Source of the DNA: an uncultured Coriobacteriaceae bacterium | GTDB lineage: Bacteria > Actinomycetota > Coriobacteriia > Coriobacteriales > Coriobacteriaceae | Assembly (NCBI GenBank): GCA_944319885.1 | Contig: CALUFC010000001.1 | Location: 310,001 to 374,000, forward strand | Length of the DNA stretch: 64,000 nt | Direction of reading: 5' to 3' | Shown here: positions 22,216 to 55,003 of the stretch, one piece after another | How positions within the stretch are numbered: position 1 is the first letter of the stretch | Layout of the letters: the number at the start of each line of letters is the position of its first letter | The notes under the pieces: model-generated | Database searches by the model: none | What the model was told of the DNA's origin: nothing | Seen by the model: the letters and a program-made list of their open reading frames with translations, nothing else | Translations under genes and position numbers: made by a program

Positions 22216-22887
22216 ATGCCGCTCGTTTACGTCATCGAAGACGATGCTGCCATCTGCAGTGAGCTGCTCCAGCTGCTTGAGCACAACGGATACGAGGCTG
22301 CCTGCTGCACCGATTTTGAGCACGCGGCAGACGACGTGCGCGCCGCCGATCCCGATCTGGTGCTGCTCGATCTCACCTTGCCCGGCACCGACGGGCACTT
22401 GATCTGCCGCGACATTCGCGCAACATCAGATGTTCCCATCATCGTGCTCACCTCGCGCACCACCGAGATCGACGAGGTCATGAGCATGACCATCGGTGCC
22501 GACGATTTCGTATCCAAGCCCTACAGCGCCCGCGTGCTCATCGCGCGCATCCAAGCGCTGCTGCGCCGCACGGCGGGAACCGAGGCGGGGAGCGTTATCG
22601 AGCACAACGGTGTTTCGCTCGATCTAGCGCGCTCTGTTGCCATGGCAGGGGGCAAGCACGTCGAGCTCACGAAGAACGAGATGCGCATCCTGGCGCTGTT
22701 GATGCGCCGCGCACCGGCGATCGTTTCTCGCGAGGCGATCATGCGCGATCTTTGGGACTCCGATTCCTTCATCGATGACAACACGCTTACGGTCAACATC
22801 AATCGGTTGCGGGCCACACTTGAGCGGATTGGCGTGACCGGATACTTGGTAACACATCGCGGTCGCGGTTATTCGGTGCAACCATGA
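22216..22887 (+). CDS. OmpR-family response regulator
   Basis: A 223-residue regulator. The receiver domain has D9/D10, the phospho-acceptor D52 in LLDLTLPG, T79 and K101. A C-terminal winged helix (about 130-223) ends RGRGYSVQP. GAGGAGGG precedes ATG 22216. Its stop overlaps the histidine kinase start (ATGA), so the pair is co-translated. By similarity of the kinase it belongs to the BceR/VraR-like group that answers cell-envelope stress, but no target is adjacent. Confidence 0.93.
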   Translation: MPLVYVIEDDAAICSELLQLLEHNGYEAACCTDFEHAADDVRAADPDLVLLDLTLPGTDGHLICRDIRATSDVPIIVLTSRTTEIDEVMSMTIGADDFVSKPYSARVLIARIQALLRRTAGTEAGSVIEHNGVSLDLARSVAMAGGKHVELTKNEMRILALLMRRAPAIVSREAIMRDLWDSDSFIDDNTLTVNINRLRATLERIGVTGYLVTHRGRGYSVQP

Positions 22888-23936
22888 GCCCGTTGGACTA
22901 CCTCAAATCCGTTGTCCCGAGCATGGTGCCGCTCGTGGGCGCCGATCTGTTATGCATGTTCGTGCTCGCTGTTGCCGGGGTGGGCCGCGATGTTATCGTG
23001 TTCACGGGCTTCATTGCATTAGCAGGTGCGCTCATGGCGATTTCGTTCGCCTACATGCGGCGCCGAAGTTTCTACCAATCACTCGATACGCTCATCACAT
23101 CGTCCGAACATCCTCGCTGGCTCGCCGATATGGTTGATCGCCCCACCTTTTCCGAGGGCGAGCTCACGTATGATGCGCTTTCCGCAGTTGCCAAATCTGC
23201 CAACGATGACGTTGCGGCCTACCGCCGACAGGTCGAGGATTATCGCGAGTACATCGAAACTTGGGTCCATGAGGCGAAATCGCCGCTGGCTGCGGCGCAT
23301 CTCATGCTTGCCAATCTCGAGGAAACCACAGTGGACGATGCGTCTTATGAGCGGCTACAGAGTGTGGGCGACGAACTGAAGCGTATCGAAGGATACATCG
23401 ACCAGGCGCTGTTTTACGCGCGGTCCGAAGCACTCGATCGCGACTATCTTATCAGGAAGTATTCGCTTGCAGATTTGGTGAACGTATCGATCAAATCGAA
23501 CGCGTCCGCGCTGATTGCCGCTCATATCACTCCTGTGCGGAAGGGTTTGGACCTCACGGTGTTCACCGATGAGAAGTGGATCGAGTTCGTGCTGGGCCAA
23601 ATTATCCAGAACAGCGTGAAGTACGCAGATGCTGCTGACCCTCACATCGAGTTCTCGGGCAGACTTCTCGATGAGGGCGGTGCAAACGAATGCGTCGAGC
23701 TTGTGGTAGCTGATAACGGATGTGGTGTCAGCGCTGCCGATCTACCCCGCGTGTTTGAGAAGGGTTTTACCGGATCAAATGGACGAACGCATAAGCGGGC
23801 GACCGGCATAGGGCTCTATCTCGTGAAGCGCCTCTGCGACAAGATGGACGTGGGGATTGATGCCCGGTCACGCGAAGGCGAGGGCTTCGCCATCGCGCTG
23901 AGGTTCCACACGAATAAGTTCCATTATTTTGGATAG
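22884..23936 (+). CDS. Intramembrane-sensing histidine kinase (BceS-like)
   Basis: A 350-residue kinase with two N-terminal membrane helices (about 13-34 and 37-57) and almost no outer loop, the layout of Bce-type kinases that sense through a partner ABC transporter. H129 in WVHEAKSPLAA is the phosphorylation site. The N box (QIIQNSVKYA), G1 (DNGCGV), F (FEKGFTG) and G2 (TGIGLYLVK) boxes follow. No BceAB transporter genes flank it. The gene seems less GC-rich than its neighbours. Confidence 0.9.
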   Translation: MSPLDYLKSVVPSMVPLVGADLLCMFVLAVAGVGRDVIVFTGFIALAGALMAISFAYMRRRSFYQSLDTLITSSEHPRWLADMVDRPTFSEGELTYDALSAVAKSANDDVAAYRRQVEDYREYIETWVHEAKSPLAAAHLMLANLEETTVDDASYERLQSVGDELKRIEGYIDQALFYARSEALDRDYLIRKYSLADLVNVSIKSNASALIAAHITPVRKGLDLTVFTDEKWIEFVLGQIIQNSVKYADAADPHIEFSGRLLDEGGANECVELVVADNGCGVSAADLPRVFEKGFTGSNGRTHKRATGIGLYLVKRLCDKMDVGIDARSREGEGFAIALRFHTNKFHYFG

Positions 23937-24044
23937 CGTTCGGGTAGTCGGCGAGCGCGTGCGCGTCTTTCAGAAGCGAAGGAGCTGTTGCGAGGAGTTG
24001 AACAAGCTCCTCCATGCAGTTTTTCTATAATTCGCTTTCATTTG

Positions 24045-24236
24045 TGTCATTTAGTTCAGATTCCGGAGCAATGAGGGCCTTGGAGCGACGCGAGAGTGCC
24101 GGTCATTCGTATTGCGCGGCGACTGTTCCTCATAAGATATTGTATCTATCTATATTTAATAGATAGATACAATATCATTTGCATGCTTCGGAAGGTATTC
24201 GCCCCGAATGTGCTCCGGAATCTGAACTAAATGACA
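24045..24236. repeat. 192-bp element with perfect 26-bp terminal inverted repeats (MITE-like)
   Basis: The left end 24045-24070 (starting TGTCATTTAGTTCAG) is the exact reverse complement of 24211-24236. Inside, 24136-24153 and 24159-24176 form a perfect 18-bp palindrome (GATATTGTATC...GATACAATATC) around ATTTA, very AT-rich for this genome. There is no ORF inside and no obvious target-site duplication. It occupies most of the 441-base gap between convergent genes (23937-24377). A weak GAGGAG/CTCCTC hairpin at 23992-24012 precedes it, and a GAAAAATCGATTTTTC palindrome lies at 24247-24262. Confidence 0.65.
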
Positions 24237-24292
24237 TTTTTGGTGCGAAAAATCGATTTTTCTTGAGCGTGACATAGGTAGGCAAGGACATG

Positions 24293-24324
24293 AAAAGCGG
24301 GGGAGGCGATATCGCCTCCCCCGC
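24293..24324 (-). terminator. Intrinsic terminator of the universal stress protein gene
   Basis: A perfect palindrome, GCGGGGGAGGCGAT (24297-24310) with its complement 24311-24324, is followed on the minus strand by TTTT. It lies 53 bases past the usp stop codon. Confidence 0.85.
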
Positions 24325-24377
24325 GTCGCGTTCCGCATGGCTTGAAGTTGCGGGCGATGTCTCGTTGCTGCTGCGAG

Positions 24378-24815
24378 CTACTTCACGACGAGAATGTCGC
24401 ACTCGGAGCTGCGCAGCAAGAACGTCGAAATTGAGCCAAGAAGCGCATACTTGATCGATGAAAGGCCGCGCGCGCCGCACATGACGAGATCGGGCTTGAT
24501 AACATCGAGCATCTCGTCCTTCAGGGTCTCGCGAATGCGTCCAGCGCGAATGATGACCTCTACTTCGGGAATATCCTCAGAGGCTTTGGCTTCCTCGATC
24601 TGGGCGGCAATGGACTCTCTGAACGCCGCTTCGAGACCGTTAACCAGGTCGAGCGGATAGACCCCCGCCGATTCGAGTGCGGTTGAATCGATGACATGGC
24701 CGATGTAGAGCTTGGCCTTGTTGTTCGCTGCGACCTTGATGGCGCGCGCGAGCACGAAATCCTGCTGCTCGGTTCCGTCGAGCGCTACAAATACCTTGGA
24801 ATAGCCTTCGTTCAT
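24378..24815 (-). CDS. Universal stress protein (UspA family)
   Basis: A 145-residue single-domain Usp. It begins YSKVFVALDGTEQQ, and the ATP-binding loop G-x2-G-x9-G-S is present in CGARGLSSIKYALLGS. These cytoplasmic proteins bind ATP and help survival under growth arrest or stress. Which stress is not indicated by the context. It is followed by a strong terminator and so is monocistronic. Confidence 0.9.
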   Translation of the reverse strand: MNEGYSKVFVALDGTEQQDFVLARAIKVAANNKAKLYIGHVIDSTALESAGVYPLDLVNGLEAAFRESIAAQIEEAKASEDIPEVEVIIRAGRIRETLKDEMLDVIKPDLVMCGARGLSSIKYALLGSISTFLLRSSECDILVVK

Positions 24816-54822: not shown

Positions 54823-55003
54823 ATAAAAATGATACTTGATGAGTATCATATGCGAAGTGTGGACGTTTTCCCTGAGATCTCGTTATGACTGGACGAACAT
54901 GCGCTATTTGCGCAGTTGAGCGGGCTGTCAAACAGTGCGCTCTTTGCTTGGAGCCAGAAAGCATCCACACTTCGCATATGATATTTAATCAGTATCATTT
55001 TAT
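54823..55003. repeat. 181-bp element with long inverted ends and terminal dyads (MITE-like)
   Basis: TATCATATGCGAAGTGTGGA at 54844-54863 is the exact reverse complement of 54964-54983. Outside this core the ends also match (ATAAAAATGATACT at 54823-54836 against AGTATCATTTTAT at 54991-55003, one base difference in length). Each end holds a 21-bp dyad: ATGATACT-N5-AGTATCAT at 54829-54849, and a near-copy at 54978-54998. No ORF lies inside. It fills much of the 497-base gap 54698-55194, the rest of which holds only the 9-mer repeats and the pyk terminator. Confidence 0.6.

Follow-up and report, generated by a model that had tools for sequence, protein, structure and literature searches.

The element at positions 24045-24236 of the window, i.e., the whole 64,000-nucleotide stretch of an uncultured Coriobacteriaceae genome that was analysed, is one of ten dispersed copies in which two identical inverted arms enclose a variable interior, with both the total length and the position of the centre following the turns of the DNA helix. 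We think that this element probably, if by no means surely, acts as a DNA scaffold on which a looped nucleoprotein complex forms; a single dedicated protein would bind its arms in a sequence-specific manner. The initial annotation had offered a protein-binding site among its readings and, from its sequence, the element does look like one.

As initially annotated, the two 26-nt arms of the window element are perfect inverted ends (100% complementary) and the interior contains a perfect AT-rich palindrome with 18-bp arms and a 5-nt loop (Table 1), which extends to 24131-24181 at 91%. The element, which overlaps no conventional gene, lies, also as annotated, between two convergent genes encoding a histidine kinase (22884-23936, + strand) and a universal stress protein (24378-24815, - strand). 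The inverted-repeat score of this element and of the copies sharing its ends, hereafter family 1, was 24-26, whereas three 400-kb simulations under a first-order Markov model gave no inverted repeat that had a loop of 60-260 bp and scored 17 or more. A terminator hairpin was observed at 24297-24324 of the window. In the sister species (G005), the kinase side together with the element and the stress-protein side are found on different contigs (C15 and C2), the break or rearrangement relative to the window falling at about 24330-24380, just past this hairpin.

Table 1. Coordinates, in the window, of the features of the family-1 and family-2 elements.
Feature	Positions	Strand	Remarks
Left inverted arm, 26 bp	24045-24070	+	Invariant heart TTAGTTCAGATTCCGGAG at 24051-24068
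Right inverted arm, 26 bp	24211-24236	-	Invariant heart at 24213-24230
AT-rich central palindrome	24136-24176		Shared centre TCTATA-n-TATAGA; on the ~10.5 bp ladder
Outer T tract	24020-24024	+	21-25 bp outside the left arm
Outer T/A tract	24257-24261		21-25 bp outside the right arm
Family-2 left arm, TATCATATGCGAAGTGTGGA	54844-54863	+	Found by inverted-repeat search of the window
Family-2 right arm	54964-54983	-	Element of 140 bp in all
Degenerate copy GCAGTTGAG of the central motif GCAGGTAGA	54912-54920	+	Starts 68 bp from the left end, like other copies

When end patterns were searched with up to three mismatches, the host genome (29 contigs, 2.02 Mb) gave 20 matches to the 24-bp end of family 1, all of them in facing pairs (ten in total) and none single, and the reversed pattern used as a control gave no match in this genome. 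The sister species carries eight pairs, all of them at loci matching those of the host, and is the only other carrier of these ends among 67 genomes of the bacterial family. A scan of GTDB returned only the MAG of the sister species (uncultured Coriobacteriaceae bacterium) and one unpaired cyanobacterial match, while no match to the family-1 ends was obtained in IMG/VR or in phage and plasmid collections; a phage or plasmid origin was set aside, family 3 (described below) giving no match either. The family-1 copies adjoin unrelated genes: they are located after a histidine kinase gene, after a flavodoxin gene, beside a ribose-phosphate pyrophosphokinase gene, between the Sir2 and dihydropteroate synthase genes, between carA and carB, after pspA and at other sites, in contexts that are convergent, tandem, divergent or, for the carA-carB copy, internal to a gene pair. 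A common regulon was rejected, the genes flanking the copies being unrelated. An intrinsic terminator was also rejected, the right arm being followed by no consistent T run and one copy lying between divergent genes. Finally, recognition of the arms by a guide RNA would need an unpaired guide copy, and none was found in the genome with up to three mismatches.

Judging from the comparison of the host with its sister species, the inverted ends are held letter for letter by selection, whereas the DNA between them appears to drift freely except in length. Over eight orthologous loci, the 18-bp heart of the arms showed no change in 288 compared positions, while the interiors of the same pairs were on average about 67% identical; the flanking DNA was 77-85% identical in most alignments. 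Mere insertion relics would have drifted along with the interior. Besides, a T or A tract located 20-25 bp beyond each arm keeps its position at most of the 20 host ends and 16 sister ends, and host and sister species agree at 15-16 of the 16 ends for positions -25 to -22, vs about 65% for neighbouring positions. Within the host, the interiors of the ten copies gave no alignment, their only common parts being the palindrome centre and its register. At one of the loci (L035, 1432-1725), a contig-end ORF matches phosphate acetyltransferase together with a short methionyl-tRNA synthetase stretch, which may be an assembly chimera.

The ten host copies measure 170, 171, 181, 181, 192, 192, 192, 193, 202 and 203 bp, and these lengths concentrate at a period of about 10.5-10.8 bp (R = 0.95 at 10.5 bp, with 0 of 100,000 random draws as high), a statistic that is weakened if the copies descend from one another, the lengths being then not fully independent and the effective sample smaller than ten. 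Orthologous lengths agree within 1 bp in all eight pairs, four of which align without gaps at 60-81% identity. The distances from the palindrome to the ends follow the same ladder of about 10.5 bp (R = 0.89), the centres lying 80.5/81.5, 89.5-91.5, 99.5-101.5 or 111.5/112.5 bp from the ends. This is illustrated by the window copy, with its palindrome centre at 111.5 and 80.5 bp from the left and right ends, respectively, and by its like-oriented orthologue in the sister species, with corresponding distances of 101.5 and 90.5 bp: both elements are 192 bp long, and the palindrome has shifted by about one turn at constant total length. The sites are in helical register, as is required of the sites of a DNA loop. 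Such quantisation is seldom visible in natural genomes, and with lengths and centres locked to whole turns and the intervening sequence free, the geometry of a protein-DNA complex would be legible from comparative genomics.

Several other families display the same arm-centre-arm layout. De novo inverted-repeat scans covered 454 kb of the host genome (G000), 400 kb each of G003 and G004, and 142 kb of G010; related species were found to carry families with unrelated ends, several of them with a common central motif, CGCAGGTAGA, at fixed distances. The end of family 2 occurs 21 times in the host genome and eight times in the sister species. Its host copies, about 11 pairs, are 140-141 or 150-152 bp long and one sister copy reaches 161 bp; GCAGGTAGA or a degenerate form begins 68/69 or 79 bp from one end, and the column information amounts to 22.4, vs 16.3 ± 0.47 after shuffling. 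The family-2 element of the window (54844-54983) lies downstream of an ORF reading like pyruvate kinase. One orthologous family-2 pair (L194 1020-1169 and L199 1037-1186) is 93% identical inside, the other pairs being 55-76% identical. Family 3, common to G001 and G003 with 12 pairs each, comprises elements of 155 or 166 bp. The motif CGCAGGTCAGA, or a sequence close to it, starts at bp 76 in 20 of 20 copies; AAGTAG/CTACTT is also found, at bp 44-49 counted from either end. These elements are often bordered by further repeats, GTGACATTTTCGCGCAACGACGAC and CTCTCGGGGGCGTTTTCACT (flanks of L228, L240, L242, L245, L229 and L234). The idea that one family takes the place of another at a given locus was considered and rejected, families 1 and 3 having only one locus in common, beside a phosphate acetyltransferase gene. 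A fourth layout (G004, G006, G007 and G002) combines doubled arm repeats with the same core at a fixed distance in most copies. In another genus (G010, 142 kb), 8 of 111 occurrences of the core motif are located between inverted arms scoring at least 13, vs 1 of 111 random positions. Contig C1 of this genome contains many inverted-arm elements (L302-L309) with differing arms and the same CCGCAGGTAGA centre, among them clusters in which GTCCCgcCTTGGGAGAG is repeated, near 86.5-87 kb and 99.6-100 kb. The host genome itself seems to hold one further core-bearing family (C1:148956-149096, 307011-307145 and 417525-417654), with arms like AGGTATTCCATGGTTT, the core CGCAGGTA and an inner AGTAG/CTACT. 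From its layout and register, family 1 may be assigned to the same class as these core-bearing families, the AT palindrome taking the place of the core.

In the proposed scaffold, the two arms (about 24 bp, with the A/T tract about 20 bp further out) would both be bound by the same dedicated protein and the DNA between them would bend until the arms meet, the centre (AT-rich palindrome in family 1, CGCAGGTAGA in several sister families) serving as apex or accessory site on the same helix face. Sites that must meet would have to face the same way because, at a spacing near the persistence length, twist is costly. The resulting complex may serve the host. What counts against the scaffold reading is that no common regulated function is visible from the mixed gene contexts, that close relatives lack such elements at the tested loci and that four of the ten copies have no clear central palindrome. 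As for their origin, the elements most likely arose as miniature-transposon-like insertions, at sites that selection would since have maintained. The absence of the elements from the tested loci of relatives indeed keeps a transposon origin plausible.

It could be proposed instead that these elements are ordinary, non-autonomous MITEs, the ends of which would bind a transposase and the interior of which would carry an accessory site; the transposase that spread them would since have been lost or be unrecognised, and the length steps would reflect a short-loop requirement of the transpososome at insertion. This explanation deserves consideration, but we regard it as unlikely. Part of the initial proposal of a miniature transposable element stands: the window element is short, lacks coding capacity and has terminal inverted repeats, and it belongs to one of several lineage-specific families, with intergenic copies of 170-203 bp dispersed at ten places of the host genome, rather than being a single copy conserved in all relatives. 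All the assemblies used here are drafts or MAGs; in the close relatives, the elements are missing at the tested loci, where intergenic DNA is short or absent, and helical length steps are known for the excised elements of Paramecium (PMC3464196). However, the copies of a MITE should share their interior, and the unrelated interiors found here do not agree with that part of the proposal. No target-site duplication was seen, as already noted for the window copy, matching flanks being absent at all ten copies, although old insertions could have lost them. Neither an autonomous relative nor a solo end was found, the 20 ends being all paired at 170-203 bp and absent elsewhere in the 67 genomes of the bacterial family, so that the full transposon with matching ends envisaged initially has no counterpart in these genomes. 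Besides, once a MITE is dead, its ends are expected to decay at their locus, whereas arms and outer tract remained unchanged across the species split while the interiors fell to 67% identity, and the stretches missing at the loci of relatives exceed the size of the element.

The structured RNA also suggested at first, taken here as an RNA family closed by a long stem, appears improbable. It would account for the folding of the window copy, which is far better than that of shuffled sequences (z = -9), for the strong inner hairpin present in six of the ten copies (no clear central palindrome being found in the other four), and for a palindrome symmetry that is element-specific and sometimes compensated, as own partners match at 0.81 of positions, vs a mean of 0.45 (maximum 0.52) for exchanged partners. 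However, several family-1 interiors fold no better than shuffled sequence and Rfam gave no match to a known RNA family. Moreover, the arm sequence itself is invariant, beyond what pairing requires, and the outer tract is conserved as well; length and centre shift by whole turns of B-DNA on one side only, which a hairpin does not need and an RNA leaves unexplained.

It is very improbable that the elements are stand-alone attachment-like sites, with arm sites around a core, for an integrase of phage or ICE type. The doubled direct repeats in each arm of one sister family, at a fixed distance around the core, do resemble attP, but the host genome encodes no arm-binding integrase, only Xer-type recombinases, the searches of IMG/VR, phages and plasmids gave no match, and families 1 and 2 of one genome differ in their core. 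An invertible switch, in which a recombinase would flip the segment between the arms and vary the expression of neighbours, is hardly credible: the layout of perfect inverted arms separated by about 190 bp recalls that of invertible promoters, and in one of the eight orthologous family-1 pairs (L035/L057) the element is reversed with respect to the flanks, but the other seven pairs, four family-2 pairs and nine family-3 pairs keep their orientation (judged, for the latter two, from flanks and motif orientation), the genome has no serine recombinase (no PF00239 match) and, as tyrosine recombinases, only two Xer-type PF00589 proteins (XerC/XerD-like), and the convergent-gene and carA-carB sites are ill suited to promoter switching.

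With the looped scaffold as the preferred reading, a broader proposal is made only tentatively and is rather doubtful, namely that Coriobacteriaceae hold an unrecognised chromosomal system in which each family comprises about ten arm-centre-arm sites able to form loops, the centre being conserved across families and species and the arms turning over together with a co-evolving binding protein, for chromosome organisation or another host-wide function. If so, this would be a DNA-looping machine of a new kind, with a fast-changing arm specificity, in a bacterial family common in the gut. Alongside these elements, the host seems to have a standard ParB/parS system; two TGTTTCACGTGAAACA-type parS-like sites are located 99 bp apart in the host genome (C1:122312-122410).

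Among known systems, repressor operator pairs of the lac, gal and ara type consist of two sites kept in helical register by a protein bridge. Family 1 is alike in having two sites in register; unlike these operators, it is not tied to promoters, occurs as about ten copies in unrelated intergenic places and has a third, central site. The RIP/BIME repeats of enterobacteria are comparable in that two repeat units in inverted orientation flank a central site of bending, whereas the arms described here are not REP-like hairpins and several unrelated arm families share one centre. Correia repeat enclosed elements are intergenic, 100-200 bp long and present in many copies, with 26-bp inverted ends and a possible internal protein site (PMC2649163, PMC10969869). 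Our elements are alike in all these respects, but Correia elements have a conserved core and a target duplication, while the copies of family 1 have unrelated interiors and showed no target duplication. Finally, the internal eliminated sequences of Paramecium show a length period of about 10 bp, ascribed to a looping that puts both ends on one helix face (PMC3464196), in line with the periodic lengths reported here. They are excised, decay fast and have short variable ends, whereas the bacterial elements, not known to be excised, have invariant arms of about 24 bp and an internal site that is also in register. If derived from transposons, the elements described here would be a bacterial counterpart of these ciliate eliminated sequences.
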